Under the pieces are notes generated by a model, which worked only from the letters and a program-made list of their open reading frames with translations, searched no databases and was not told the origin of the DNA. Made by a program: the position numbers and the translations under genes. Below, piece by piece: positions 9,594 through 23,058 of a DNA stretch of 64,000 nt (position 1 is the stretch's first letter; every line of letters begins with the position of its first letter). The stretch is from Planctomycetota bacterium (lineage in GTDB: Bacteria > Planctomycetota > SZUA-567 > JAKLDR01). Where the stretch lies: the NCBI GenBank assembly GCA_022703445.1, contig JAKLDR010000002.1, positions 124,001 to 188,000 of the forward strand, given 5' to 3'.

Positions 9594-9664
9594 CAACATC
9601 CGGAGAGCAAGCCGGAGCCGTCCGCCCTTCCGGTGCTCCGCCTTGTCGCTGCATGTCGGATGTC
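9594..9664. repeat. Imperfect inverted repeat next to MITE-like element
   Basis: ACATCCGGAGAGCAAGCCGG at 9595 is mirrored by GCTCCGCCTTG and CGGATGT ending at 9663. It borders the element at 9666-9939 and may be part of it or an older insertion. The rest of the gap 9487-9594 shows nothing I can name. Confidence 0.5.
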
Positions 9665-9665
9665 A

Positions 9666-9939
9666 AGAGTGCGTCCGTAGACCTGGGTGGGGCGCGCCGG
9701 GGGCGGCAGGGCGCCGGCCGAGGCGCGAGGAGGAGCAAGTGTCCAAAGCGACACGGCGACGACGAGCAACGAAGGCCCGCGCCCTGCCGCCCCCGGCCCG
9801 GAGGGTTGGGGCGGCGCCCGGCCGTTCGCGGCGTTGCGGCTCCCCGACGGCTCTCCGCCGAGCCGACTTCGTCGCCGCGCCTTGCGCCCGGTCGGGCGGC
9901 GTTCCCAACGTGCCCCGCCCAGGTTTACGGACGCACTCT
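9666..9939. mobile_element. MITE-like non-coding element 1
   Basis: Terminal inverted repeats of about 28 bases: left 9666-9693 begins AGAGTGCGTCCGTAGACCTG, right 9912-9939 read in reverse begins AGAGTGCGTCCGTAAACCTG. About 220 bases lie between, with no credible gene (open frames here show no similarity or start context). A core of about 45 bases (9722-9766), including GTGTCCAAAGCGACACGGCG, is shared almost exactly with element 2 (22303-22348), although the ends of the two elements differ. The right end supplies the TAG stop (9938-9940) of the DUF58 gene. No transposase seen, so it would need one from elsewhere. Confidence 0.65.
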
Positions 9940-10834
9940 AGGTCCGCTCCACCAGCCGCCCCCGGGCCAGCAGCTCCAGGGCTGCCTCCTCGAAGGGCCG
10001 GTCGCTGGCCGCGCAGACCAGGCGCATCCGGTGGCGCGCGGCGAAGGCCGCCAGCTCACCGGCGTGAGCCGCGGCCGCCGCCTCGTAGCCGGCGGAGGTG
10101 GTCGGGCCGTCGAGGCGCAGGCGCTCCCCGGTTTCGGAGTCGACCAGGATCAGGGCCCCCGGGGCGGGAGGGGCGACCTCCTCGGGGGAGAGCACCCTGG
10201 CCAGGACCACGTCGGCGCCGCGCCCGGTCGCCGCGGCCAGGTCCGTCCAGGCCGCCGGCGGCATCCAGAGGTCGCTGATCCACACGGCCACTCCGCGGCC
10301 GCCGCCGGAGGCCGCCCGGGCGGCGCGCTCCGCGGCCGGGCGCAGGCCGCTCTCCCCGGCCGGCCGGGCGCGCTCCAGGAACTCGAGCAGGTCGTACAGG
10401 CCCTGGGCGCCGCCGCGCAGGGCCAGCGGCCTGGCGTCGCCGCCGGAGAAGGTCACCGCGGTCACCCGGTCGCCGCCGGCCAGGCCCACGTAGGCCACCG
10501 CGGCGGTCAGGCGCCTGGCGAAGTCGAACTTGCCGGGGCCGCCCGGCCCGGCGCCCATCGATGCCGAGCAGTCCAAACAGACGACCGCGCGGCCCTCGTG
10601 CTCGGGGGTGAACTCCTTGAGGAAGAGCCGCTCCAGGCGGCCGTAGAGGTTCCAGTCGATGTAGCGGGGTTCGTCGCCGGCGGCGTAGTTGCGGTGCTCG
10701 CGGAACTCGCCGGTGCCGCCGCGCGCGCCGGCCAGGCGCAGCCCCTCGGAGCGCGAGCCGGCTGAGCGCACCAGCGCCAGGCGCAGCTTCTCCAGCCGCC
10801 TGAGGAAATCCTCGCCGAAGAGCGCGGAAGCCAT
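9938..10834 (-). CDS. DUF58 (von Willebrand A-like) protein
   Basis: Protein of 298 residues from ATG 10834. It shows the DUF58 core 'FREHRNYAAGDEPRYIDWNL' (the family's R-Y-x-x-G-D-D-x-R-x-I-D-W motif) near residue 50, followed by a vWA metal site CLDCSASMG near residue 85 and 'VAVWISDLWMP' near 185. DUF58 genes usually stand next to a MoxR AAA+ ATPase and BatA/BatB genes; none is here, so this copy is an orphan. Its role is probably in envelope assembly or stress, by family only. The stop codon is made by the terminal repeat of the adjoining MITE-like element, so the native C-terminus may have been changed. Confidence 0.8.
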   Translation of the reverse strand: MASALFGEDFLRRLEKLRLALVRSAGSRSEGLRLAGARGGTGEFREHRNYAAGDEPRYIDWNLYGRLERLFLKEFTPEHEGRAVVCLDCSASMGAGPGGPGKFDFARRLTAAVAYVGLAGGDRVTAVTFSGGDARPLALRGGAQGLYDLLEFLERARPAGESGLRPAAERAARAASGGGRGVAVWISDLWMPPAAWTDLAAATGRGADVVLARVLSPEEVAPPAPGALILVDSETGERLRLDGPTTSAGYEAAAAAHAGELAAFAARHRMRLVCAASDRPFEEAALELLARGRLVERT

Positions 10835-10872
10835 GATGGGAGTGTAGCCCGGGGATGGCCCGGGGGCAAGTC

Positions 10873-10916
10873 TCTGATCCGTCGGATCGGCCGGATCCGG
10901 CGGATCCGTCTGATCC
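10873..10916. repeat. Tandem-word palindrome, GGATCCG family, upstream of pfkB-type gene
   Basis: A run of GGATCNG words that is close to its own reverse complement (for example GGATCCGGCGGATCC). It lies just upstream of the promoter of the kinase gene. A near-reverse-complement copy sits just downstream of the same gene at 11909-11951. Confidence 0.8.
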
Positions 10917-10935
10917 ACGCTCCCGGAAGGGCGCC

Positions 10936-10964
10936 TTGACGAAGGCCCCGGCCAAATCGATAAT
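10936..10964 (+). promoter_or_regulatory. Sigma-70-type promoter of the PfkB kinase gene
   Basis: -35 TTGACG at 10936-10941, spacer of 17 bases, -10 GATAAT at 10959-10964. Start of transcription should fall near 10971, giving a leader of about 14 bases that holds the AGGAGGTG site. Confidence 0.65.
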
Positions 10965-10984
10965 CGGCCCTCAGGAGGTGCCCC

Positions 10985-11884
10985 ATGTCCCTGCTCGTGG
11001 TCGGCTCCATCGCCCTCGACACCGTCGAGACCCCCGCCGGCAAGGCCGAAACGGTCCTGGGCGGCTCGGCGGTCTACTTCACGGCGGCCGCCGGACATTA
11101 CACCCGGGTGCGGCTGGTCGGCGTGGTCGGCGAGGATTTCCCGAAGGACTGCCGCGCGTTCCTGGGCAGCCTGAACGCCGACCTCGAGGGCCTCGTCGTC
11201 CGGCCCGGCAAGACCTTCCGCTGGCACGGGCGCTACCAGGGCGCGATGAACGAGGCCGAGACGGTTAAGGTCGATCTCAACGTCTTCGGTGAGTTCGAAC
11301 CCAAGCTCCCGGCGGCCTTCAGGGACAGTGACTACGTCTTCCTGGCCAACGGCGCCCCCGAGCTCCAGATGAAGGTGCTCGACCAGGTGGAGGGGCCGCG
11401 CCTGACGGTGGCCGACACCATGAACCTCTGGATCGAGACGCGACGCCCGGCGCTCGACCGGCTGCTGGGGCGGGTCGACGCGCTGTGCCTCAACGAGACC
11501 GAGGCGCGAATGCTCACCGGCGAGGCGGTGCTGGCCCGCGCCGCGCGCAAGCTGGTGGATTTCGGCTTGAAGGCCGTGGTCATCAAGCGCGGCGAGCATG
11601 GCGTGACCGTGGCCTCCAAGCAGGGCATCTGCGCGCTGCCGGCCTTCCCGGAGGTGAACGTGGTCGACCCCACCGGTGCCGGCGACAGCTTCGCCGGGGC
11701 GATGATGGGCTTTCTCGCCGAGACCGGCCGGACCGACCCGGCCACGCTGCTCAAGGCCGCGGCCCACGGCACGGCGGTGGCCAGCTTCACCATCCAGGGC
11801 TTCGGTCCGCAGCACGTCGCGGCGCTCTCGCGCGAGAAGATCGACCGGCGCGTGGCCGAGCTCCGGGCGGTGTGTGCCTTCTAG
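10985..11884 (+). CDS. PfkB-family sugar kinase
   Basis: Protein of 299 residues, the usual family length. ATG follows AGGAGGTG with correct spacing. The N-terminal 'SLLVVGSIALDTVETP' and 'VLGGSAVYFTAAAGHY' and the C-terminal signature VVDPTGAGDSFAGAMMG (the anion hole and catalytic Asp near residue 235) identify a ribokinase/PfkB kinase. The substrate is not clear; carbohydrate or nucleoside are the likely classes. The gene stands alone between two copies of the GGATCCG word repeat, with its own promoter. Confidence 0.88.
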   Translation: MSLLVVGSIALDTVETPAGKAETVLGGSAVYFTAAAGHYTRVRLVGVVGEDFPKDCRAFLGSLNADLEGLVVRPGKTFRWHGRYQGAMNEAETVKVDLNVFGEFEPKLPAAFRDSDYVFLANGAPELQMKVLDQVEGPRLTVADTMNLWIETRRPALDRLLGRVDALCLNETEARMLTGEAVLARAARKLVDFGLKAVVIKRGEHGVTVASKQGICALPAFPEVNVVDPTGAGDSFAGAMMGFLAETGRTDPATLLKAAAHGTAVASFTIQGFGPQHVAALSREKIDRRVAELRAVCAF

Positions 11885-11908
11885 GGCTGCGTGTGGGCAA
11901 GCAGGGCT

Positions 11909-11951
11909 CTGATCAGACGGATCGGTCGGATCCGACGGATCCGTCTGATCC
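11909..11951. repeat. Tandem-word palindrome, GGATCCG family, downstream of pfkB-type gene
   Basis: Near reverse complement of 10873-10916; starts CTGATCAGACGGATCGGTCG. It ends about 18 bases before the start of the next gene, so it lies inside that gene's leader or promoter region. Confidence 0.8.
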
Positions 11952-11969
11952 GTTCCCCCGGGTGATCCC

Positions 11970-12551
11970 GTGTCCAAGCTGATCCGCGCGTTCTTCGCCG
12001 CCGAGATCGACGACCGGCTCCGCCGGGAGCTCGCCGCGGTCATGAGCGACCTCCAGCGCATCGACGCAGCGGTCCGGTGGGTCGCGCCCGAGAACCTGCA
12101 CTGGACGGTGAAGTTCCTGGGCGACGTGCCCATGACCTCCACCGGCGAGATTGCCGGCGCGGCCAAGGAGGCGCTCGAGGAGCACGCGCCGTTCGCCGGG
12201 ACGGTCACCGGCGTGGCGGCCTTCCCCGATGCGCGCCGGATGCGGCTGGTCGCCGCCCGGATGGAGGACGGCGGCCAGCTGGGGGCCATCCGCGACATCG
12301 TCGAGGACTACATGGAGGACTTCGGCGTGCCGCCCGACGGCCGGGCCTTCAAGGCCCACCTGACCATGGGCCGGGTCAAGGGCTCGCGGGGCATAGGGGA
12401 GCTGGCCGAGGCGCTCAAGGCCTACGAGGGCAAGGGGTTCGGCGAGTGCCATGTTGAAGAAGTCGTCCTCTTCATGAGCGAGCTCTCCCGCGGCGGGCCG
12501 ACCTACACGCCGCTGGCGCGCATCCCGCTGGGCGGCGGGGCGACGCCATGA
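11970..12551 (+). CDS. thpR: RNA 2',3'-cyclic phosphodiesterase (ThpR/LigT)
   Basis: Protein of 193 residues from GTG 11970 (preceded by GGGTGAT). The two HxTx motifs that make up the active site are present: HWTVKFLG near residue 44 and HLTMGRVK near residue 130. The family is a 2H phosphoesterase that opens 2',3'-cyclic phosphates at RNA ends. Typical 'RAFFAAEIDDRLRRELAAV' N-terminus and 'LSRGGPTYTPLARIPLG' C-terminus. Followed by a composite word repeat rather than another gene. Confidence 0.9.
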   Translation: MSKLIRAFFAAEIDDRLRRELAAVMSDLQRIDAAVRWVAPENLHWTVKFLGDVPMTSTGEIAGAAKEALEEHAPFAGTVTGVAAFPDARRMRLVAARMEDGGQLGAIRDIVEDYMEDFGVPPDGRAFKAHLTMGRVKGSRGIGELAEALKAYEGKGFGECHVEEVVLFMSELSRGGPTYTPLARIPLGGGATP

Positions 12552-12570
12552 TGTCGCTCCCGGAGCTTGG

Positions 12571-12760
12571 CTCACGCAAAGCCGCCAAGCCGCCAAGAAC
12601 GGCACGACGGCCCCCAACCACAGAGGACACAGAGGGTCGGAGTTGGCTTTGGGCTTTGGGCTTTCGGAACAACGGTGGCAGAATCTGTCGTCCTCTGTGT
12701 CCTCCGCGTCCTCTGTGGTTAGAGCTGCTGTTGCTGTTCTTGGCGCCTTGGCGTGAGAAC
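12571..12760. repeat. Nested tandem-word hairpin (CGCCAAG outside, CACAGAGGA inside)
   Basis: Two word families are nested. Outer arms: 12571-12600 (GCCGCCAAGCCGCCAAGAAC) and 12736-12758 (TTGGCGCCTTGGCGTGAG). Inner arms: 12616-12636 (CCACAGAGGACACAGAGG) and 12690-12720 (CCTCTGTG words). The centre holds TTGGCTTTGGGCTTT and AACAACGGTGGCAGA. The part 12595-12720 recurs almost exactly, inverted, at 13595-13727, so the two copies flank the sugar-isomerase gene. A 76-codon frame through the repeat is not considered coding. Confidence 0.85.
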
Positions 12761-12777
12761 CTTTTAGGAGTCTCCTG

Positions 12778-13578
12778 ATGCTTTCCATCGTCACCGACGA
12801 GATCTCCCACGACCTCGAGACCGCCGTCTCCATCGGCTGGAAGTGGGGCGTACGCGAGTTTGAGCTGCGCCGCGTGTACCTGGAGCGCGCGCCCTACTAC
12901 CCGGAGGCCTTCCACGAGCTCCTGCCCTCGCTCCGGAAGACCTACGCCGGTATCCGCTTCGTCGCGGTGAGCCCGGGGCTCTTCAAGCTGCCGCTCGGCC
13001 ACTGGGCCGTCGACCACAACGGCGGGGCCAAGCTCGACGCCTCCTTCCGGCTCGCCGAGCAGGTTGGCTGCCGGACGGTGGTGATCTTCGGCTTCGAGCG
13101 CCCGGCGGGACCCGGGCGCGAGGCGGGCGCGCCGCTACAGGCGATCGAGATGCTCGGCGCCGCCGCGGCCAAGGCCGCCCGGGACGGCTTCACCCTGGCA
13201 ATCGAGATCGAGGGCGGCAGCTACGCCGACAGCGGCACGGCCGCGGCGGAGCTGGTCGAGGCGGTCGGCTCGCCGGCCATGGGCGTCAACCTCCAGCGCT
13301 GGGATCCGTCGGCCACCGGCGACTCCTGGGAGCGCGGCTTCGAGCGCGTCCGCCGGCACGTCCGGCACATGCACTACAAGGCGGCCGACACGCCGGAGCT
13401 CGGCGGGGGCAAGCCGGGCTGGGACTTCGGCTGGGCGCCGAAGCTCAAGGCGCTCGCGGCCGGCGGCTACGCCGGGAACATCTCGGTCGAGACCCACGCC
13501 AAGCCGCGCCTCGAGCGGAGCGAGACGACGCTGGCCGCGCTGCGGCGGGTGCTCGCCGAGGTGGGTCTGACGGAGTGA
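12778..13578 (+). CDS. Sugar phosphate isomerase/epimerase (xylose isomerase-like TIM barrel)
   Basis: Protein of 266 residues; ATG follows TTAGGAG. AP-endonuclease-2/xylose-isomerase-like barrel: N-terminal 'LSIVTDEISHDLETAVSIG', metal-ligand-like positions in 'LAIEIEGGSYADSG' (Glu near 142), 'GVNLQRWDPSATGDSW' (near 176), 'RRHVRHMHYKAADTP' (His near 200) and closing 'GNISVETHAKPRLE' (Glu near 240). Such proteins isomerise or epimerise sugars or inositols in catabolism. The gene is the only one between two inverted repeat copies, hinting at movement as a unit. The substrate is unknown. Confidence 0.82.
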   Translation: MLSIVTDEISHDLETAVSIGWKWGVREFELRRVYLERAPYYPEAFHELLPSLRKTYAGIRFVAVSPGLFKLPLGHWAVDHNGGAKLDASFRLAEQVGCRTVVIFGFERPAGPGREAGAPLQAIEMLGAAAAKAARDGFTLAIEIEGGSYADSGTAAAELVEAVGSPAMGVNLQRWDPSATGDSWERGFERVRRHVRHMHYKAADTPELGGGKPGWDFGWAPKLKALAAGGYAGNISVETHAKPRLERSETTLAALRRVLAEVGLTE

Positions 13579-13594
13579 CGTGAGCTCACGATAT

Positions 13595-13727
13595 AACCAC
13601 AGAGGACACGGAGGACACAGAGGACGACAGATTCTGCCACCGTTGTTCCGAAAGCCCAAAGCCGAAAGCCCAAAGCCAACTCCGAGCCCTCTGTGTCCTC
13701 TGTGGTTGGGGCTCGTCGTCCCGTTCT
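13595..13727. repeat. CACAGAGGA word hairpin, inverted copy downstream of sugar isomerase
   Basis: Near-identical reverse complement of 12595-12720, including the central TTTCGGCTTTGGGCTTT-like section and the ACGACGAG/ACGGGACG edge. Itself a hairpin with arms CCACAGAGGACAC at 13598 and CCTCTGTGTCCTCTGTGG ending near 13706. It occupies the gap between two convergent genes. Confidence 0.85.
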
Positions 13728-13757
13728 TCGCGACTTGGTGCGGCGTCTCTGTCCTGT

Positions 13758-16154
13758 TCACGGCTCCTTGAGCAGATGCCGGTAGGCCGGCTCCAGGCCG
13801 GCGGCCTCGATGATCTTGTCGGCGTCTCCGGCGCCGGCCTCGTCGAAGCCCCAGGCCTGGACCAGCCCGTCCTCCGGCGGCTTGCCGGCGGCGGGGGGCT
13901 GGGCCAGGGCCTTGATCCCGGCCTGGTCCAGGGCGCGGTCGTAGAGCCGGATCTCGTCGAGGGCCCCGCTGAAGGCTGACGCGGCGAAGCCGTCCTGGCG
14001 CCGACCGATGACCAGGGGCGAGCCCCCCGACCCGCGCTTGAGATTGACCGCCTTGCTGGCCACCTCGGAGCCGTCGACGTAGACGCGCAGCGTCGCGCCG
14101 TCGTAGCTTGCGGCCAGGTGCTGCCACTGCTTGATCTTGAGCGGTGCCGTGGAGCTCAGCGGCGCGAAGCAGTTCTCGCGACCGCCGCCGATATTCAGAT
14201 AGGCGCCGGCCTCCTTTCCGGCAATGATCAGCCCCCAGTGGCCAGCGGTCCACTCGTTGCCGTTCTTGTTGACCAGCCAGCGCCGGTTGTCCTCGCCGCC
14301 CGGGTAGTCCTCCATCCGTACCCAGACGCCGACCGTGAAGCGCTCGGGGTCGAGCTTGGCGGCGTGGGGCACGTCCAGGGCTGCGCCGTCGCAGGCCAGG
14401 GCCTGGCCGGCCACGCCCTTGGCCGAACTGCGACGCCCGCCCAGCATGTTGTCCTTCCAGGTGTGCCAGGCCTCCTGGCAGTTGTTGAAGCGCGCCGGTG
14501 CGCCGCTGGTGGCGTAAACCAGGTTGCGCTCGAAGAGGAAGCCCTTGCTGCCCTCGTCCACGAAGAAGCCGTTGTTGGGCGCACCGATGGCGAACGGTCC
14601 GCGCCGGACATCGTGGATGTGGTTGCCGCGCAGGACCGTGCCGGGCTGGAAGCCCAGCGAATAGATCGCGCCGCCGTCCGAGAGCATGCGCATCACGTCG
14701 TGGATGTGGTTGGCCTCGACCAGGCAGTTCTTCATGGTCGTCTCGGTCGGGTTCCAGCGGAAGCCGATGGAGATGCCGGTGTAGGGCATCTCCCGGATCA
14801 GGTTGTGGGCCACCCGGGTGTCCGGCGCGAAAGCCACGAAGATCCCCACGCTGCCGTGGCAAACCGCCCCGCAGCGCTGGATGAGGTTGTTGGCGACCTC
14901 GTGGCCGGACGGCGCGTCGGCCGGGTTCTTCCAGTCGGCGTCGAGGCCGGTGCCGGTCAGCTCGCCCTTGCCGCGCCAGCCGACCATGACCCCGTTGCCG
15001 CCGATGTCCTCGATTCGGCAGCCGACGACGGCGTTGCGCCGGCAGCCCGGCCCGAAGCCCACCGCCGCCGAGCCGGTGTGGGCGAAGCGGCAGAGCTCGA
15101 AGCGGCAGTCCTCCGCCCAGAGGCACTCGACCGCCACCGGCGGCACGTGGGTAGGCTCCTTGACGGCCGTGCCGTAGTGGCCGGCCTGGATCTCGGCGTA
15201 GCCGACCTTCGGGAGCGGGAACTCGGCGTGCTCGAAGGCCAGGCCCGCAAAGCGCAGGTTGCGCACCGGCCGCTCCCGGGTCCCGGCCAGGACCAGCCAC
15301 TGCTCCAGGACCGGGGCGATGAAGCGCCGCCGGCCCGGATCCTCGGCGGCCGCGGCCAGGTAGCAGAGCTCGCCGGCCGCGCGGTCCAGGAACCACTCGC
15401 CGGGCTGGTCGAGGAAGGCCCGAGCGTGCTCCAAGAAGGCGGCTTTGCCCGGGCTGGTGGTGGTATAGTGCCCGTGGCCGATCAAGCCGTGCGGCGTGGC
15501 CGTGACCACCGACTTCTCGCCGGAGGAGACGACCAGCCCCCGGGTGATCGACCAGTCCTGGATGGCGACCAGCTCGGTCGCCTGGCCGGCCAAGTCCCCC
15601 TTGGCCAGCGGCTCGGCGAACGAGATGGTCTTCACGTCCGGCGAGACCGCGGCCACCCTGAGCATCTGTCCCTCGTTGGGGTGGCGGCAGCGCATGGCCC
15701 GGGCGCCGTCGACGAAGAGCTGACGGAAGAACCAGGTGCCGGCCTTGACCTCGGGCAGCTCGGCGACCCAGAGGTTGCCCTCGCGCTTCTTCCAGCCAGT
15801 GATGAGCCGGCCGCCACTCAGCACCGGCTTCTCGCCGGATGCGGCCGCGTAGGTGATCGCGAACTTCTCCGTCCCCGAGTCCTCCGGCCCGAAGACCAGC
15901 GGCTCCTTGAGCCGGTAGGTCCCGCCGCGCACCAGCACAACCAGGTCCCTGGTTTGTCCGCCCTTCTTCAGCTCGCGCACCGCGTCGCGGGCCCGCGAGA
16001 GCGTCGCGAAGGGCTTCTCCTTCGTCCCCGGGCCGGCGTCGCTGCCGTCGGTCGCCACTACGAAGTCGGCCTTCATCTCCGGCTCTCCTCCCAGGACGGA
16101 CAGGGCGCCGGCCAGCAGCGCGCCCAGGCCGACAAGGCTCGATTTCCCAAGCAT
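13758..16154 (-). CDS. Secreted parallel beta-helix protein with C-terminal LamG domain
   Basis: Protein of 798 residues. Signal peptide at the N-terminus (MLGKSSLVGLGALLAGALS). Residues about 28-60 hold the usual entry to secreted beta-helix proteins, 'FVVATDGSDAGPGTKEKPFA'. Residues about 280-560 are a right-handed parallel beta-helix with repeated 'NLIQRCG', 'HNLIREMP', 'ANHIHDV', 'GNHIHDVRR' rungs. Residues about 590-740 are a LamG/concanavalin-like module ('FTVGVWVRME', 'WQHLAASYDGATLRVYVDGS', 'GALDEIRLYDRAL'). Beta-helix plus LamG suggests binding or cleaving an extracellular polysaccharide; no specific lyase active site can be assigned. Upstream AAGGAGAAC is the RBS. Confidence 0.82.
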   Translation of the reverse strand: MLGKSSLVGLGALLAGALSVLGGEPEMKADFVVATDGSDAGPGTKEKPFATLSRARDAVRELKKGGQTRDLVVLVRGGTYRLKEPLVFGPEDSGTEKFAITYAAASGEKPVLSGGRLITGWKKREGNLWVAELPEVKAGTWFFRQLFVDGARAMRCRHPNEGQMLRVAAVSPDVKTISFAEPLAKGDLAGQATELVAIQDWSITRGLVVSSGEKSVVTATPHGLIGHGHYTTTSPGKAAFLEHARAFLDQPGEWFLDRAAGELCYLAAAAEDPGRRRFIAPVLEQWLVLAGTRERPVRNLRFAGLAFEHAEFPLPKVGYAEIQAGHYGTAVKEPTHVPPVAVECLWAEDCRFELCRFAHTGSAAVGFGPGCRRNAVVGCRIEDIGGNGVMVGWRGKGELTGTGLDADWKNPADAPSGHEVANNLIQRCGAVCHGSVGIFVAFAPDTRVAHNLIREMPYTGISIGFRWNPTETTMKNCLVEANHIHDVMRMLSDGGAIYSLGFQPGTVLRGNHIHDVRRGPFAIGAPNNGFFVDEGSKGFLFERNLVYATSGAPARFNNCQEAWHTWKDNMLGGRRSSAKGVAGQALACDGAALDVPHAAKLDPERFTVGVWVRMEDYPGGEDNRRWLVNKNGNEWTAGHWGLIIAGKEAGAYLNIGGGRENCFAPLSSTAPLKIKQWQHLAASYDGATLRVYVDGSEVASKAVNLKRGSGGSPLVIGRRQDGFAASAFSGALDEIRLYDRALDQAGIKALAQPPAAGKPPEDGLVQAWGFDEAGAGDADKIIEAAGLEPAYRHLLKEP

Positions 16155-16208
16155 GCGCGTTCTCCTTCCCCTGCAGTACTACACCAAAAACGACCGAGAG
16201 TAAAGGGC

Positions 16209-16236
16209 TTGTCATCGGCCGGCGCAGCCGTATACA
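16209..16236 (+). promoter_or_regulatory. Sigma-70-type promoter of the ferritin gene
   Basis: -35 TTGTCA at 16209-16214, spacer of 16 bases, -10 TATACA at 16231-16236. The predicted leader of about 80 bases contains a CCCCG-7-CGGGG hairpin at 16248-16264 followed by TTTAG, which might slow transcription or shape the leader; no Fur-like box is evident. Confidence 0.6.
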
Positions 16237-16325
16237 TGTCGGAATAGCCCCGCACTGGACGGGGTTTAGTACGGGAAGCGCCGGAAGCGTCTTCCGGACC
16301 GGTAAACGGAGGAGGTTGCCCGATC

Positions 16326-16868
16326 ATGATCAACAAGAAAGTCGAAGCCGCCATGAACAAGCAGATCGTCGCCGAGACCTATTCGGCCTGGATGTACCTG
16401 TCCATGGCCGCCTGGCTGGACGAGCAGAACCTCAAGGGCTTCGCCAGCTGGATGAAGGTGCAGGCCCAGGAGGAGCTGACTCACGCGACGCTCTTCTACA
16501 ACCACATCACCGACCGCGGCGGACGGGTGCAGCTCGGGGCCATCGAGGCCCCGCCCAATGAGTGGAAGAGCGCCGGGGCGGTCTTCGAGGCCGCCTATGT
16601 CCACGAGCAGAAGGTCACCGCCATGATCAACAACCTCGTTGAGCTGGCCACTGCCGAGAAGGACTTCGCCGCCAACCCCATGCTCCAGTGGTTCGTCAAG
16701 GAGCAGGTCGAGGAGGAGAAGAACCCCTCGGAGCTGGCGGCGCGCCTCAAGCTGGTCGGCTCGACCGGCGACGGGCTGCTGCGCCTGGACGCCGAGGCCG
16801 GCACCCGCACCTTCGTCTACCCGCCGCCGGTCCTGGCCGGAGCGGCCGGGGAGGGCCCGGCGGCCTGA
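16326..16868 (+). CDS. ftnA: Bacterial non-haem ferritin
   Basis: Protein of 180 residues, slightly longer than the usual 165-170 because of a short Ala/Gly/Pro tail. ATG 16326 follows GGAGG. The four-helix ferroxidase ligands are visible: Glu in 'VAETYSAWMYLSMAAWLDE' (about 17), 'QAQEELTHATLFYNHI' (Glu 50 and His 53), 'AAYVHEQKVTAMINNL' (Glu about 94) and 'EQVEEEKNPSELAARL' (about 127-130). It stores iron as ferric mineral in the cytoplasm. It has its own promoter and terminator. With the two rubrerythrins at 29.8-30.9 kb it suggests attention to iron and peroxide stress. Confidence 0.92.
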   Translation: MINKKVEAAMNKQIVAETYSAWMYLSMAAWLDEQNLKGFASWMKVQAQEELTHATLFYNHITDRGGRVQLGAIEAPPNEWKSAGAVFEAAYVHEQKVTAMINNLVELATAEKDFAANPMLQWFVKEQVEEEKNPSELAARLKLVGSTGDGLLRLDAEAGTRTFVYPPPVLAGAAGEGPAA

Positions 16869-16894
16869 GCGGCTCACAGCGGTTCTGAAAACCG

Positions 16895-16930
16895 AAGGGC
16901 CCGGCGCAATGCCGGGCCCTTCTGGTTTTT
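16895..16930 (+). terminator. Rho-independent terminator of the ferritin gene
   Basis: Perfect stem AAGGGCCCGGC / GCCGGGCCCTT with loop GCAAT, then CTGGTTTTT. Lies 27 bases after the ferritin stop. Confidence 0.92.
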
Positions 16931-16950
16931 GTGGCCGGGTAATGCGCCGA

Positions 16951-18510
16951 TCAATCGTACCCGCCGCCGCCGAACCGGCCGAGCTCCCTGGAATCGGCCT
17001 TGAACTCCGGGCCGAACTCCACGGTCCACTGCTTGAGCCCGCCGCCGATGTTGTGCCAGGCGTAGAAGGTCACCGTGGCCTTGTCCCCGGCCTTGACCAC
17101 CTTGGGGGCCTCGATCTGCTTGGCGGCCTCCTGGCGCTTGGCCTCGATGGCCGGGAACATGTTGAACTTGATGGCCAGGAAGTCGTCGGCCGATTTGCAG
17201 AGCTTCCAGCCGTCCTCGCTGGCCGGCGAGCTCAGGTGCACGTAGAGCGCGGCGGCGTTGACGTAGTCCTGGTCCTGCCACTTGGACCTGTCCTCGGCGG
17301 CGACCATCTTGCCGAACTGCTCCCCCCGGGATTCGTTGACCTTGAACGGATAGGTAACCAGTCCGGTGCGGTCCACACAGAGGTAGTGGCGGACCGGCAC
17401 GGCCGTGGTGTGGTAGAGCAGCACGCACCAGAAGCGCTGGTCTTTGAGCGGGTGCTCGATCTTCTGCTCGCCCAGGTGCGGGTTCTTGCTGCCGAGCGCG
17501 CTCATGGTGGGCTTGAACGGCTTGCCCCGGAGCCACATGTTGGCCTTCTCGTCGGGCTTGAGCGCCGCCACCGCCTCGGCGGCGAGCTTCTCCATCTCCT
17601 CGTCGGTGAGCAGCTTCTTGCCGGCGGGGTCCGGCTGGACCGGCTCCTCCCCCCGGAACGTAGGCGGCGCCGGCCGGGCCGCCTCGCCCGCTCGCACGGC
17701 GCGCACTGTCAACGGCACCCCGGCTCCGAGCACCACCGCGGCGCCCAGCGCGATCCCCGCGGCCAACTTGACTTTCATCCAGAACATGGCCTTCAAGACT
17801 CCTTCCGTCCATGCGGCAGCCTGGGCCGAGACCAGCCCGGCGGCGGCCGCCTTCCCCGCCGCGGCGAGCGCCGCAGCCTTGGCCGCCGAGATCGCGAAGG
17901 ACCCCGGCAGCGGTTCCAGTGAGTGATTGGCAAGCAACCCGGCCAGCAGGGCCGCGGAGCAGACCGCCCCGCGCGAGCCCAGCCGTTCGCGGAGCATCTC
18001 CCGGCCGCGCGCGAGCTGCGCCGAGAGCGTCCCGGTCGGAACCCCCAGCAGCGCGGCGACCTCCTCCTGGGTCCGACCCTCCATGTGATGTAGGATGAGC
18101 GGAGTCCGGTAGCGATCGGGCAGGCCGTCGAGCGCCCGGTCGAGCTCCGGCCGGACCGCGGCCCAGAGATCTTCACCGGACCGTCCGCGTTCGGTGACCA
18201 TGCCGGCCTCCTTCTCACGGGCCCTGCGGACCGCCGCAGCCTCCCGCGCCCGGAGCGAGACATGCCGGGCCACGCGGTGCAGCCAGCCGGCCAGCGAACG
18301 CTCGCCGTGCAGCGCCGCAGCCTTCCTGGCCAGGACCATGAAGACGGCCTGGGCGGCGTCCTCGGCGTCGGCCGCATCGCCCAGCAGGCGGCGGCAGGCG
18401 CCCAGGACCAGCGGGCCGTGGCGGCGGACCAGTTCCCCGAAGGCCGCCTCGCGACCGGAGGCCGTGAACTCGGCCAGCAGTTCCCCGTCACTGCGGATGG
18501 CTTCGACCAT
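16951..18510 (-). CDS. ECF sigma factor fused to transmembrane and outer sensor domain (copy 1)
   Basis: Protein of 519 residues from ATG 18510 (AGGAGG 13 bases upstream; ATGs at 18522 and 18537 are alternatives). Sigma region 2 at about 20-85 ('RRLLGDAADAEDAAQAVFMV'), sigma region 4 at about 125-180 ('RTQEEVAALLGVPTGTLSAQ'). An Ala-rich hinge (about 200-240, 'GLVSAQAAAWTEGVLKAMF') and one membrane helix (about 243-265, 'KLAAGIALGAAVVLGAGVP') follow, then about 250 residues predicted outside the cytoplasm, of no family I know. This architecture is typical of Planctomycetota ECF factors and would let an outer signal act on a tethered sigma factor. The hinge-TM part is almost identical to copy 2. 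Confidence 0.88.
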   Translation of the reverse strand: MVEAIRSDGELLAEFTASGREAAFGELVRRHGPLVLGACRRLLGDAADAEDAAQAVFMVLARKAAALHGERSLAGWLHRVARHVSLRAREAAAVRRAREKEAGMVTERGRSGEDLWAAVRPELDRALDGLPDRYRTPLILHHMEGRTQEEVAALLGVPTGTLSAQLARGREMLRERLGSRGAVCSAALLAGLLANHSLEPLPGSFAISAAKAAALAAAGKAAAAGLVSAQAAAWTEGVLKAMFWMKVKLAAGIALGAAVVLGAGVPLTVRAVRAGEAARPAPPTFRGEEPVQPDPAGKKLLTDEEMEKLAAEAVAALKPDEKANMWLRGKPFKPTMSALGSKNPHLGEQKIEHPLKDQRFWCVLLYHTTAVPVRHYLCVDRTGLVTYPFKVNESRGEQFGKMVAAEDRSKWQDQDYVNAAALYVHLSSPASEDGWKLCKSADDFLAIKFNMFPAIEAKRQEAAKQIEAPKVVKAGDKATVTFYAWHNIGGGLKQWTVEFGPEFKADSRELGRFGGGGYD

Positions 18511-18577
18511 GGTTCCGGGCATCCCTCCTGCTGACATTATCTCCGCCGCGCCCCGGAATCGATGCACGAAAAAGACC

Positions 18578-18612
18578 AAAAAAAGCGCGGGGCGGGCCTG
18601 GGCCCGCCCCGC
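18578..18612 (-). terminator. Rho-independent terminator after 18634-19611 gene
   Basis: On the minus strand, perfect stem GCGGGGCGGGCC / GGCCCGCCCCGC with a two-base loop, then GCTTTTTTTGG. It ends the transcript of the gene whose stop is at 18634 before the sigma fusion copy 1 begins. Confidence 0.9.
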
Positions 18613-18633
18613 GGATGCGGTCTGCTTAGGCTG

Positions 18634-19611
18634 TCAGTTGGCTTCCGGCTGGCCGCCGGGGACGTTCAGGCCGCCCTCGCCGGCCTCGACCCGCCGGGTG
18701 AAGGCCTTGATCTTCTCCTGGAGCTCCCCGCTGGTTGCGGCGATCTTGCTGCGGAGATACGGCAGGGCATTGCGGCCCATGATCAGCAAATCCCTCTCGG
18801 CCGCGGCGCGCACCGCCGGGTCCGGGTCGTTGAGCTTCAGGGACTGGCAGATCGGGCGCATGCCGGCCCGGAGGTTCTCGCTCTCCTCGACCAGCCTGAA
18901 GACGCCATCCTTGCCCTCGAAGCCCACGAGCGCATCGATCGAGCCGGAGTTCCTCATCTTGGCCGGGCCGCCGGCAGCGCCGCCGTCCACCTTGAGGGCG
19001 GCCCTGACGGTGATGCTCCCATCCTTCTCGGTCACCTCGAACTCGGCTGGCTTGATGTCGAACTTGAAGAAGCCGTCCTGGGCCAGCTCCTTGCGGAGCA
19101 GGCAGTAGCCGTGGGCGGCGGCGCGGGCGGCGTCCTTGTCCTTGGCGCGCAGCGCCTTCGCGCAGAATCCCTGGAGGTCGGCGGCGCTCTTCATGAGCGT
19201 CACCTCGCGCTTGCCGTCCTTGCCGGCCTCGGCGACGGCGAAGAGGTTGGCGGTCCCCAGCGGCTCGGGCGCCATCCGGGCCACCGGGAACTGCGCGAAG
19301 CGCATGGTGAGGAACTGGTGATTGGGGAAGGCGGCCTTGACCGCCGGATCGGCCGATTCCGCGAGCTCGGGCAGTTCAACGCCGCCCTTGACGTTGTCCT
19401 TCAGCCAGGCCTGGACGGCGTCCTTGGCGGGGCCAGCCTTTGCCGGGCTGTCCTTGGCGGTGTCGCCCCTGCCCGTCTCTCCGGGCCGGGTGACGAGTTC
19501 GACCTCCTCGCCTCCCCGGGCGACGCGGATCTCCAGGGGAGCGCTGCTCCCAAGAACCGCGGCGGCCAGGGCCATCCCTGCAGCCTGCGCCATCCTCTTC
19601 ATCCCGAACAT
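18634..19611 (-). CDS. Secreted or membrane-anchored protein of unknown function with HEAT-like tail
   Basis: Protein of 325 residues from ATG 19611 (AAGGAG ten bases upstream). Starts MFGMKRMAQAAGMALAAAVL, a signal-like helix that resembles the 'KAMFWMKVKLAAGIALGAAV' hinge of the sigma fusions, as if a sensor half had been detached from its sigma factor. The middle, with 'LMKSAADLQGFCAKALRAKD' and 'ARAAAHGYCLLRKELAQDGF', is not recognised. The end (about 255-310), 'LNDPDPAVRAAAERDLLIMG', is a HEAT-like unit. It lies between two sigma-TM-sensor genes on the same strand, and has its own terminator. Confidence 0.65.
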   Translation of the reverse strand: MFGMKRMAQAAGMALAAAVLGSSAPLEIRVARGGEEVELVTRPGETGRGDTAKDSPAKAGPAKDAVQAWLKDNVKGGVELPELAESADPAVKAAFPNHQFLTMRFAQFPVARMAPEPLGTANLFAVAEAGKDGKREVTLMKSAADLQGFCAKALRAKDKDAARAAAHGYCLLRKELAQDGFFKFDIKPAEFEVTEKDGSITVRAALKVDGGAAGGPAKMRNSGSIDALVGFEGKDGVFRLVEESENLRAGMRPICQSLKLNDPDPAVRAAAERDLLIMGRNALPYLRSKIAATSGELQEKIKAFTRRVEAGEGGLNVPGGQPEAN

Positions 19612-19651
19612 TGTCTGCGCACTCCTTCCCTTCAAGAGCCTCTTCTGGCCT

Positions 19652-20410
19652 TCACATCGTGGGCGTGGGGCCGGGGAGTGGCCGCGGAGCGGGCTTGGGC
19701 CCGGGCACGACACCGCCGCCTCCACCACCGCCACCACCGCCACTACCTCCGCCACCACCCACTCCGCCGCCTCCGCCACCCGACCAGGCGGCGGAGGGTG
19801 CCGGCCTGACCCGTACCTCAATCTCCGCACTGCCGGTGAGCGCCCTGCCCTTCCAGCCGGACTCCTTCTCGCCGAGCTTGGGCTCGTAGACGATCTGGAG
19901 ATGGTACTTGCCAACCGGCAGGGTCTTCAAGGCCGTGGCGCCGCCCTCGGCCTCCTCGAAGCGCCACTTGGCGTCGAACTCGATTGGGCAGTTGCCGTGG
20001 CCGCCGCGGGGCAGGCGCACGGTGGCGGCCGAGGCGCTCGCGTCCTTGGCGAGCTGGGCGGCATCGTACCTGGCCACGAGGACCTTGCCACCGTCCTTGG
20101 GAGTGATCAGGACCCGGAAGTCGGGCATGCTGAGCGCGGCATGCACCATGGTCAGGTCGGTCGTGCCGGCGTTGTTCAGGTACAGAGCGAACTTGAGGCC
20201 CTCGCCCTCGAAGTACACGTTCCGGAGCGTCGGCGTGTCGCCCCGGCCGGTGGGCACCAGGCCGAGCTGCAGCCCATCGACGGCCTCGCCCCAGTTGAAC
20301 GGGTCGGGCGCCTTGGCCCCCGCGGGCTTGTTGCCGCCGTCGCCGGCCCAGGCAGCTGTGGCCATGGCGCCGGCCAGAGCGAAGCCCGCGCAGATCGTCT
20401 TGAGTTTCAT
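19652..20410 (-). CDS. Secreted protein with poly-glycine tail, unknown function
   Basis: Protein of 252 residues; ATG 20410 sits seven bases after AGGAGG (a GTG two codons upstream is also possible). Signal peptide 'MKLKTICAGFALAGAMATAA', cut near AWAGD. Residues 25-190 look like a beta-sandwich: 'LKFALYLNNAGTTDLTMVH', 'LPVGKYHLQIVYEP'. The latter resembles 'LAAGKYRLTVEFDA' in the sensor half of the adjacent sigma fusion copy 2, so the two may share a fold. The end is glycine blocks with single Ser or Val, then a Pro-rich tail. The gene follows copy 2 by 37 bases on the same strand and is probably in its operon. Confidence 0.7.
   Translation of the reverse strand: MKLKTICAGFALAGAMATAAWAGDGGNKPAGAKAPDPFNWGEAVDGLQLGLVPTGRGDTPTLRNVYFEGEGLKFALYLNNAGTTDLTMVHAALSMPDFRVLITPKDGGKVLVARYDAAQLAKDASASAATVRLPRGGHGNCPIEFDAKWRFEEAEGGATALKTLPVGKYHLQIVYEPKLGEKESGWKGRALTGSAEIEVRVRPAPSAAWSGGGGGGVGGGGGSGGGGGGGGGGVVPGPKPAPRPLPGPTPTM
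19710..19782. repeat. CCR/CCN triplet run encoding poly-glycine
   Basis: Run of CCG, CCA, CCT and CCC triplets on the plus strand, read as GGN glycine codons by the minus-strand gene. The mixed codons suggest an old, partly scrambled simple repeat rather than one likely to slip often. Confidence 0.8.
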
Positions 20411-20447
20411 CGTCACTCCTCCTGGTTGGCTGGCTCCGTCGGTGCGG

Positions 20448-22130
20448 TCAGTCCGCCGGCTGCGGCGGACCGATGAAGGCCGGCGCCTTCTTCATCATTA
20501 CCGGCGCGCCCTGGCCTTCGTTGAGGAAGGAGAAGCCGGCGTCGCCCTGCCCTCCCCCGTAGGGAACCTTGCCGTCGGCGTCCGCGGACACGGTGATGCT
20601 CACGGACATCCCGGGCTTGGCCGTCGGCGCCTTGAAGGTGAACGTGAAGTTCCTGCCGTCGTCGGTCACGCCCCTGGGGGTCTCCTTGACCAGGTCCTCC
20701 GGCCTGAAGGTCTTCCAGAAGTCGTCGTTCGCGCTCACCTTCTTCTGGAAGGCGGCGCGCTCCAGCGCGTAGGCTCGGGCGGCCTCCAGGGCCTTCCTCT
20801 CGCCGGCCTGCTCGGCGGCGGCGTCGACCGCCTGGACCTCGAAATCCACGGGGCCGAAGCGGGCCTTGCCGGCGTCGCCGGCGTCGAACTCCACGGTCAG
20901 GCGGTACTTGCCGGCCGCCAGGGGCAGCCCCACCTTCTCCCGTCCCCCGGCCGCGTCCCGCCAGAAACTGTTGCCGGAGCCGGGGGCCTGCGCCGTGGCC
21001 TCAAACGCCTCGCCGGCGGCGAGCTTCCTGGCGACCAGTTGGGTGGGCATTTTCGGCAGAAGCACCTCGGGGTCGTGGCCGGAGCGCAGCACGGCCTTGG
21101 TCCCGACGTTCTCGACGACAAAGCTCATCCCGTAGAGGGTGGTGCTGCCCATGAACGACTGGAACTCGAGATCAACCTCCTTGTTGGAGGCGTTCTTGTA
21201 GCTGGCCACGAAGGCCAGCGCCTCCCGGCTGCCGAACGGGACCTTGGCCGGGCGGACCGAAATCTCCAGCCCGCCGATGACCGCCGGCTTGGGGCCCGCG
21301 TCCTTGCGCGCCTCTTCGGCCCGCACGGCGTGAATCGCCGCCGGCACGCCGGCGCCGAGGACCACCGCGGCGCCCAGCGCTATTCCCGCGGCCAGCTTGA
21401 CCTTCATCCAGAACATGGCCTTCAAGACTCCTTCCGTCAGAGCGGCGGCCTGGGCCGAGACGAGCCCGGCGGCCGCCGCCTTCCCGGCCGCGGCCAGCGC
21501 CGCGGCCTTGACCGTGGATGCGGCCAGTGCCCCGGGCACCGCCGCCGAGGATTTCTCAAGCATCAGCGCGGCCAGCGCCGCCGCGGAGAGCGACACGCCC
21601 CGGCGCACCAGCCTCTCCCGGAGCAGCTCCCGGGCCCGGGCCAGCTGTCCGGAGACCGTCCCCTTGGTCCAGCCCAGCTCAGCGGCCGCCTCCTCGTTGG
21701 TCCGGCCCTGGAGGTAACAGAGCACCAGCGGCTGGCGATACTTCCCGGGCAGCCTGGCCAGCTCCTCATCCAGGGCCGGCCGGAGGATGTCCCAGGACCC
21801 GTCAGCGCTCGGTCTGGCCTCGGTCATGGCTGCGGCCCGCCTTTCGTGCTCGTCCCGGACGGCGGCGGCGGCCCGGGCCTTGAGGGCCACGCGGACGGCC
21901 ACGCCGTAGAGCCAGCTGCCCACCGAACCGCCCTTGCGCAGTTCGCCGGCCTTGCGGGCCAGGACCATGAAGGACGCCTGGAAGACGTCCTCGGCCCCGT
22001 GCGGGTCGCCCAGCAGCCGGGCGGCCACGCCCATGACCATGGGGCCGTGGCGTCGCACGAGCTCCTCGAAGGCGGTCTGGTCTCCGGCCGAGGCGAAGCG
22101 CTCCAGAAGCTGTCCGTCGCTGGGGGGCAT
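20448..22130 (-). CDS. ECF sigma factor fused to transmembrane and outer sensor domain (copy 2)
   Basis: Protein of 560 residues; ATG 22130 follows AGGGAGAA. Sigma region 2 at about 15-80 ('RLLGDPHGAEDVFQASFMVL'), region 4 at about 120-175 ('EEAAAELGWTKGTVSGQLAR'). Hinge 'GLVSAQAAALTEGVLKAMF' and one membrane helix near 245-265, nearly identical to copy 1 at both protein and DNA level (21335-21500 against 17700-17890). The outer part (about 275-560) holds beta-sandwich-like sequence, 'FGSREALAFVASYKNASN' and 'KYRLTVEFDAGDAGKARFGP', and is unrelated to the outer part of copy 1. Probably reads an envelope signal. Next gene downstream encodes a secreted protein with a similar sandwich motif. Confidence 0.88.
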   Translation of the reverse strand: MPPSDGQLLERFASAGDQTAFEELVRRHGPMVMGVAARLLGDPHGAEDVFQASFMVLARKAGELRKGGSVGSWLYGVAVRVALKARAAAAVRDEHERRAAAMTEARPSADGSWDILRPALDEELARLPGKYRQPLVLCYLQGRTNEEAAAELGWTKGTVSGQLARARELLRERLVRRGVSLSAAALAALMLEKSSAAVPGALAASTVKAAALAAAGKAAAAGLVSAQAAALTEGVLKAMFWMKVKLAAGIALGAAVVLGAGVPAAIHAVRAEEARKDAGPKPAVIGGLEISVRPAKVPFGSREALAFVASYKNASNKEVDLEFQSFMGSTTLYGMSFVVENVGTKAVLRSGHDPEVLLPKMPTQLVARKLAAGEAFEATAQAPGSGNSFWRDAAGGREKVGLPLAAGKYRLTVEFDAGDAGKARFGPVDFEVQAVDAAAEQAGERKALEAARAYALERAAFQKKVSANDDFWKTFRPEDLVKETPRGVTDDGRNFTFTFKAPTAKPGMSVSITVSADADGKVPYGGGQGDAGFSFLNEGQGAPVMMKKAPAFIGPPQPAD

Positions 22131-22244
22131 CAGTTCTCCCTTTTCGCCTTATAGTGCCGGGAGGCTGCCCGGCGAATACGGGAATCCCGGGAAATCCGGA
22201 CGGGGACGTCCGGAGCGGCCCTCACATCCGGGACGATCTGCGGG

Positions 22245-22572
22245 CTAGCAGCCTACTGAAGAAGTGCCGGGGATCGCGTTGCGTCCGGACGGCCCGGATG
22301 TAAGGCGCGAGGAGGATGCCGTGTCCAAAGCGACACGGCGACGACGAGCCCCTCGACGTTGCTCGGGGCCCTGAGCGAGCCCGGCAGCGAGTCGAAGGGC
22401 AACGCGGCAGACGGGCCGTCCGGTCGCAACCCGAAGGGACGCCTGATCTTGCGGCCTCATGCTTCGTCACTCCTCCTCGACGTGTCTTTCAGACACGCCT
22501 TCGTCGTCGTTCCTCGCCTGAGGTCACAATCTCAAGCGTCGCGATCCCGGCACTTCTTCAACGGGCTGCTAG
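22245..22572. mobile_element. MITE-like non-coding element 2, flanked by CTAG
   Basis: Terminal inverted repeats of about 30 bases: left 22249-22278 (CAGCCTACTGAAGAAGTGCC), right 22540-22568 (reverse reads CAGCCCGTTGAAGAAGTGCC). CTAG stands at both borders (22245-22248 and 22569-22572) and may be a target duplication. The core 22303-22348 with GTGTCCAAAGCGACACGGCG is shared with element 1. The centre also has a CCTGAGC...TCGAAGGG short repeat (22367-22400) and a second inverted pair (CGTGTCTTTCAGACACG near 22480). No gene inside. The right end supplies the TGA of the gene at 22558. Confidence 0.7.
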
Positions 22573-23058
22573 GTCCTCGCCGAAGGCGCCGTCCTTCTTC
22601 ATCTGCCGGGCCACGGCGTTCAGGTTGAAGTCATCCTTGATGCGGGTCAGGATCACCGCGTGGGGCAGGCCCGACCTGCGGACCGTGTCCAGCAGTTCGG
22701 CGCGCCGGCCCCGGTAGGCGGCCCGGGCCTTGAGGGCCTCCATGCCGGCCCCCAGGGCGATCATGACCGCCACCAGGATGGCCCAGCCCCAGGGCACGTT
22801 GACGCGGTCCAACTCAGGGCCGGCGAAGGAGCTGAACCAGCCGAGGTTCGTGCCGACCAGTGCGGCTGCGGTGACCAGGGCCAGCACGAACCAGCGCAGG
22901 CCCCGGCCGGCGGTGATGCTGGCATTGACCGCCAGCAGGCAGCCGTAGAGTTCCTCGTTGGTGGAGGCCAGGGAGCTGACCCCGTCGGAACCGCTGGCGG
23001 GGCGCACCTTGGGGGCGGGTTGGGCGCCGCCGTCTGGATCATCCGGTTGGGCGGGCAT
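22558..23058 (-). CDS. Small two-helix membrane protein, unknown function
   Basis: Protein of 166 residues from ATG 23058. Pro-rich cytoplasmic N-terminus, then two membrane segments, 'WFVLALVTAAALVGTNLGWF' (about 55-75) and 'PWGWAILVAVMIALGAGMEA' (about 90-110), and a charged C-terminus 'HAVILTRIKDDFNLNAVARQ'. It lies 42 bases after the anti-sigma gene on the same strand and may belong to that operon. The final residues LAAR and the stop are encoded in the terminal repeat of MITE-like element 2, so the original end may be lost. No family recognised. Confidence 0.55.
   Translation of the reverse strand: MPAQPDDPDGGAQPAPKVRPASGSDGVSSLASTNEELYGCLLAVNASITAGRGLRWFVLALVTAAALVGTNLGWFSSFAGPELDRVNVPWGWAILVAVMIALGAGMEALKARAAYRGRRAELLDTVRRSGLPHAVILTRIKDDFNLNAVARQMKKDGAFGEDLAAR

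Follow-up and report, generated by a model that had tools for sequence, protein, structure and literature searches.

The stretch of DNA analysed here, referred to as the window, comprises 64,000 nt of a Planctomycetota bacterium (GCA_022703445.1, contig JAKLDR010000002.1, forward-strand positions 124,001-188,000) and contains two short non-coding elements, element 1 (270 bp) and element 2 (320 bp), whose terminal repeats are unrelated to each other and which share one internal core. The best overall explanation, to which we assign a probability of roughly 80%, is that both are miniature inverted-repeat transposable elements (MITEs) of the IS5 type in which a folded core persists and the ends change. 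As IS5-type MITEs they are ordinary; what is unusual is that their inside is conserved and folded and that their ends are exchanged. No description of this core, or of MITEs with the same core and different ends, was found in the open-access literature searched.

An earlier reading of the sequence, called here the original prediction, had located both elements to within 2 bases and described them as MITE-like, in agreement with their lack of coding capacity, their terminal inverted repeats and their copies throughout the genome. The open reading frame list contains only frames that run out of the elements, and no transposase gene was found inside either of them. The inverted ends are AGTGCGTCCGTARACCTGGGYGG in element 1 and CAGCCNRYTGAAGAAGTGCCGGGR in element 2 (in longer form AGTGCGTCCGTARACCTGGG and CAGCCNRYTGAAGAAGTGCCGGG, respectively), and the core common to both aligns at 43 of 47 bases (91%), as had been proposed. 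The surrounding genome is a 5.99 Mb draft, 81% complete, in which the window lies on contig C112. BLAST found element 2 at 52 places and element 1 at 42, partial and core-only matches included; the ends recur elsewhere, as expected, and one sibling of element 1 (G000:C295) is 94% identical. A strict core pattern matched this genome 22 times as opposed to once for the reversed pattern, and four end types carry the core: class A (AGTGCGTCCG), to which element 1 belongs, class B (CAGCCCGTTGAA), to which element 2 belongs, class C (AACCCATCCCAAAAC) and class D (TGCTCCAATTCAG). The original prediction had treated a core that is a structured entity in its own right as an argument against itself. Such an entity was found, since the core is a conserved folded module across end types and genomes, and the argument holds only in half because the ends are repeated as well; both are true.

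Probable exchange of ends around a constant core

In the genome of Phycisphaerae Bin_76R (G392), nine copies were identified, eight of them with both ends, and their internal part is 91-95% identical. The eight two-ended elements differ mainly in their outer 16-18 bases and carry four end types (AGAATCTATCTCAATTG, AGAAGCTGTTTCARAR, GAGCGTGTATGAAAG and AGGGGCTCTAACAGAA), with both ends of each element matched. The distance between cores was 5.5% within end types (8 pairs) and 4.6% between them (28 pairs; permutation p 0.97). Core and ends therefore reassort, the core staying in place and the matched pair of ends changing. By eye, one end type gives way to another immediately inward of the ends, at the conserved junction GGG(A)TCGCG and CGCGA(T)CCC.

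Recombination at this junction would probably exchange the ends, and both could then be made alike, as the element can fold back on itself; we consider this combination of junction recombination and fold-back equalisation rather doubtful as the actual route. Homing of the core into empty palindromes was also considered and is retained as speculation only, with centre-pattern counts near those of the reversed control in most of seven genomes. The per-strand counts were 9 versus 0 in G394 and 8 versus 2 in G396, and among 17 palindrome-centre loci examined only the G392 case was palindromic beyond the centre.

The folded core

On one strand, the core is predicted to fold into a hairpin in which an apical stem of free sequence stands on a ladder in which tandem G·A/A·G mismatches are separated by single Watson-Crick rungs. 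The stem can be written as ...N-GA-N-GA-N-GA-(apical stem)-GA-N'-GA-N'-GA-N'..., in which G·A faces A·G and N pairs with N'. Element 2 carries two such ladders, the core itself (hairpin A) and hairpin B on the opposite strand (Table 1). A covariance model, R1, was built from 26 cores, including both cores of the window and none of the hairpin B type. The next R1 match in the window (31874-31910, E 0.005) lies outside any element seen and is probably GC-rich coding sequence.

The pairing in the stem is supported by covariation. In a phylum-wide alignment of 34 hairpins from 30 loci fitted to R1, rung 18-71 was GC in 23 and CG in 11 hairpins and rung 15-74 was GC in 20 and CG in 14, with no exception, and the pair below the rungs was CG (28), GC (3) or TA (3). 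In 5 of the 34, the G·A step at columns 13-14 and 75-76 has given way as a whole to two Watson-Crick pairs. The rung flips go against the model, because R1 had only G-C rungs. The covariation score reached 0.548 compared with 0.140 in shuffled alignments, none of 500 shuffles attained it, and slid controls stayed at or below 0.186. Hairpin B behaves in the same manner: of its 14 homologous copies, 11 have C-G and 3 have G-C at one rung, and in L017 two outer pairs are changed on both sides.

A mechanical ladder finder requiring three or more steps returned 81 unique hairpins from 1.38 Mb of loci as opposed to one from the reversed sequence. For seven other mismatch types the count was 0-1, and the 87 found for TC/TC are the complement of the same sites. 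Since the loci had been preselected by a related motif, the 19 hairpins not matched by that motif provide the cleaner evidence, a few of which are acidic coding stretches. The apical stems vary widely, with 59 distinct 5' strands in 132 of 139 unique hairpins when variants of one stem are counted apart; stems that are completely different are still self-complementary. The loop RACGGAGA or a near relative occurs on several unrelated apical stems and resembles the ANGGA loop motif of CsrA/RsmA sites. Shorter ladders were seen at L417, L420, L423 and L425; L423 (G187) contains a pair of them on one strand, 124 bases apart within an apparent tandem repeat.

Target sites, stop codons and the IS5 transposase

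The motif YTAR is given as the IS5 target in one source (PMC10359306), and CTAG is named as an IS5 target in another (PMC10379815). In the loci examined of the window genome, 24 two-ended elements were bounded by allowing up to 1-2 mismatches to the ends of classes A-D, a rule that leaves element 2 outside, and nearly all of them are flanked by YTAR or a one-base variant. Under a strict rule that demanded inverted ends with YTAR at either side, 22 elements remained out of 159 hairpin hits. Their target 4-mers are identical in 15 and one base apart in 7, and 4 of the 15 identical targets are the non-palindromic CTAA or TTAG. These 22 elements form nine end clusters, one of which merges two types (class C and L332). 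The target duplication proposed for element 2 was confirmed, with CTAG on both sides.

The same target explains why such insertions sit on stop codons, because CTAG contains TAG. In 11 of the 24 bounded elements, the edge coincides exactly with the end of a called gene, on the target TAG, the DUF58 gene at element 1 being one of them, whereas other CTAG sites in the same loci serve as stop codons in 6 of 48 cases (Fisher p 0.003). Insertion at CTAG usually restores the TAG stop, and only sometimes does the element bring a new one; restoration by the duplication would make insertion at stop codons tolerable. The original prediction had let the terminal repeat supply the stop in both elements. 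This holds for element 2, where the reading frame runs GAC CTA GCA GCC CGT TGA with the TGA inside the terminal repeat, and fails for element 1, where the TAG belongs to the flanking CTAG, identified as target by comparison of copies. Of the two elements, only element 2 supplies a new stop by its terminal repeat; if it is removed computationally and the flanks are joined, the frame would continue with DLARRSSRM before a stop. CTAG is scarce in the window and in the loci of its genome: 93 occurrences were counted where base composition would give 444, a deficit of about 4.8-fold.

In NC_groundwater_38 (G396), an autonomous insertion sequence (IS) was seen that has the ends of elements from its own genome, those of the class GAGCCTATCTCA. 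Elements with the core end there in GAGCCTATCTCASTAGGC, and locus L268 contains a gene for a 275-aa IS5-family transposase (NF033580 E 9.7e-57; PF13340, PF13586). To its right lies an exact copy of the core-element end followed by TTAG, and to its left a related copy with 4 mismatches in 18. The search for an IS sharing the element ends, suggested with the original prediction, was thus successful for this class, and for classes A-D in the window genome it was not. In G392, two IS5-like transposase remnants (L431, L433) have the same end sequence beside CTAAGAGCGCCTAACAGAA, which is close to one end type of that genome.

Given the YTAR targets, mostly CTAG, their duplication and the IS5 gene with the same ends, the elements are very probably non-autonomous IS5-type MITEs with exchangeable ends. 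Each end type would let a different one of the resident IS5-like transposases act on the element in trans; with end types served by different transposases, the ends would turn over and the core would persist. Several results weigh against this interpretation. In the window genome, 81% complete, no transposase with class A-D ends was found; NF033580 gave no match there, and beside its single PF01609 match none of these ends was seen by eye. Elements lacking the core, three of class A (57-86 bp) in the same genome and one of 63 bp in G392, suggest that mobility does not depend on it. Moreover, when seven genomes were searched for empty palindromes that have the expected centre, the already known G392 case was the only clear one. 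Two coreless class A mini-elements have YTAR-like flanks (L389, G000:C292, approximately 11933-11976; L388, G000:C124, approximately 11263-11352). A plasmid collection searched with element 2 in distant mode gave no match. Viral contigs contained no class B end, four contigs had a class C end at one site each, and the core pattern matched 22 viral stretches, which resemble acidic coding sequence.

Function, distribution and genomic context of the core

The curated apical stems contain, on the G·A strand, 22 G·T against 7 A·C pairs (p 0.008; 132 of 139 unique hairpins, the 7 without a clear stem being dropped), a p value that is optimistic as the copies are related. By folding energy, the G·A strand is preferred in 73 of 81 hairpins as DNA and in 65 of 81 as RNA, which together with the wobble count points to this strand as the one that folds. 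A role as a single-stranded RNA hairpin at gene ends, transcribed on the G·A strand by read-through from the neighbouring gene, would fit this, and we place it slightly short of even odds. Against the RNA role stand several counts without a significant asymmetry. The uncurated wobble pairs are balanced at 45 to 45 (211 hairpins, coding matches included). Gene orientation around 48 elements from three genomes, a gene being absent from one flank of some, leaned short of significance towards the sense strand of the upstream gene: 25 upstream genes read in the G·A sense versus 15 downstream genes from the other side (p 0.15), and among genes ending at the element edge the hand count was 17 versus 8 (p 0.11); a smaller first set had looked biased, and the larger one fell short of significance. 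No T run follows the folded core, which by eye continues with GACGACGAGC; an intrinsic terminator is accordingly ruled out.

The insignificant orientation bias suits another explanation, in which the core works as DNA: hairpins stabilised by G·A steps would extrude on both strands during transposition or replication, join the ends and suit any IS5-like transposase. It would account for a core that is independent of end type, for the opposite-strand ladder pairs in two-hairpin elements of the window genome and NC_groundwater_38, and for the preference of the DNA energies for the G·A strand; however, many elements have a single ladder, the pairs at two loci (L419, L423) lie on the same strand, and coreless elements with plausible target flanks exist, so that we regard it as possible, with less confidence than the RNA role. 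That the core has no present function appears unlikely to us. As a passive hitchhiker, it would be a functionless structured repeat spread by its host MITE and conserved through recent spread, to which the great similarity of copies within a genome, the modest copy numbers and the absence of a noticed conserved reading frame would correspond, whereas the compensated rungs and the unrelated, self-complementary apical stems in many genomes require long-standing selection for pairing.

Two further explanations concern the origin of the shared core rather than its function. Other palindromic repeats do nest inside these elements, and two unrelated MITEs could each have received the same common repeat, with no exchange of ends; this is improbable in view of the end-core junctions, which are alike in the classes read by eye, and of the end swaps at the same junction among the eight G392 elements. 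It is more improbable still that GAGGAGGA...GACGACGA encodes a Glu/Asp-rich protein and that the shared core reflects a coincidence of codon usage. Many loose matches in the phylum, and probably the viral ones, are acidic coding stretches, but in the true cores the arms are mostly separated by 21-24 bases and not mainly by the in-frame 22; they lie in intergenic elements, show outer pairing as well as apical stems, and are detected with the full model. For both window elements, a coding origin is refuted. The interpretation as IS5-type MITEs with a persistent core and changing ends could be extended, tentatively, to the core as the unit of inheritance, a folding replicator that gains new matched ends and transposases and spreads across the Planctomycetota and perhaps other phyla.

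At E 1e-5, R1 had matches in 42 of the 392 phylum genomes, often several in each, with 13 candidates scored per genome; the complete one-contig genome G307 has at least 13 matches. Inspection by eye of 31 hairpins from 29 of 30 loci showed that most have the ladder and the apical stem. A scan of genomes of named species returned at least 106 stretches. Outside the phylum, true-looking cores occur at four or more loci of an Acidobacteria metagenome-assembled genome (MAG; L179, L186, L196, L210), and at least one (L169, near a contig end) in an Omnitrophota MAG, contamination being possible in both. Rfam gave no match at the gathering score in the window or in five element loci, and none for 22200-22620 at E up to 1.

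MITEs are usually viewed as pairs of ends with arbitrary filling. Like IS5-family MITEs, the elements described here are short and non-coding, have terminal inverted repeats and a YTAR/CTAG duplication and, in one genome, match an autonomous IS; unlike these, which are recognised by their ends, they have a conserved folded inside and variable ends. A conserved filling with changed ends would demonstrate that a non-autonomous element is able to change from one transposase to another. The Correia/NEMIS elements of Neisseria are also MITEs whose transcripts fold into hairpins beside genes; they have a TA target, Correia ends and a hairpin processed by RNase III, and the likeness, by description only, lies in MITEs with hairpins beside genes. 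Tandem sheared G·A motifs and kink-turns contain the same 5'-GA-3'/3'-AG-5' steps in a stem; here, up to five steps alternate with single pairs, and no three-base bulge was seen directly beside a G·A step as in kink-turns. A covariation-supported stem consisting largely of tandem G·A steps makes the core an object for structural work and for studies of RNA and DNA binding. Correia/NEMIS elements are named in two sources (PMC3733652; PMC4853749). The first of these concerns repetitive extragenic palindromes (REP) and bacterial interspersed mosaic elements (BIME) as well as palindromes tagged CGTC or GTAG, known from Planctomycetes: dispersed hairpins downstream of genes, often in pairs of opposite orientation, whose palindrome measures 20-40 bp, with the tag unpaired and without end repeats belonging to them (PMC3733652). 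Judged by that description, the dispersed palindromic hairpins 3' of genes, often paired oppositely, are similar, whereas the elements here are about 155-410 bp long with ends, target duplication and ladder stems. Identity with CGTC/GTAG REP, as characterised there, is ruled out by the lengths of elements 1 and 2 and by their terminal repeats.

Table 1. Features of elements 1 and 2 and their surroundings (window positions; a dot marks features without strand).
Feature	Position	Strand	Basis
Element 1, MITE-like, end class A (AGTGCGTCCG...)	9668..9937	.	inverted arms, sibling copy, ends checked
G·A-ladder hairpin (core) of element 1	9715..9777	+	model R1, 69 bits, E 1.3e-16
Presumed decayed left target duplication of element 1, CAAG	9664..9667	.	
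Right target copy of element 1, CTAG; contains TAG stop of minus-strand DUF58 gene	9938..9941	.	
DUF58/VWA-like gene, ends on target TAG	9938..10834	-	gene call
Element 2, MITE-like, end class B (CAGCCCGTTGAA...)	22249..22568	.	inverted arms, copies
G·A-ladder hairpin A (core) of element 2	22297..22359	+	model R1, 68.1 bits, E 2.3e-16
G·A-ladder hairpin B of element 2, rungs C-G not G-C	22459..22520	-	model R1, 49.1 bits, E 3.4e-11
Other palindromic repeat (about 50 bases) nested in lower right arm of hairpin A	22349..22399	.	L001 vs L008, L009; bounds approximate, by eye
Left target copy of element 2, CTAG	22245..22248	.	
Right target copy of element 2, CTAG	22569..22572	.	
Gene reading through CTAG, stopping at TGA within element 2 terminal repeat	22558..23058	-	

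The gene beside element 1 matches PF01882 (E 1.2e-33, 9938-10870), and for the gene that stops within element 2, Pfam gave nothing at E 0.01. Single-hairpin elements elsewhere in the phylum (L090 in G019, L421 in G236) have ends similar to class B (GCAGCC.GTT.A.AAA). The nested repeat of element 2 is of the type CCCTCGAC...GTCGAAGGG; it is missing from the shorter class B copies (L007-L009, L012) and occupies the same site in some others, such as L002-L006, L010 and L011.

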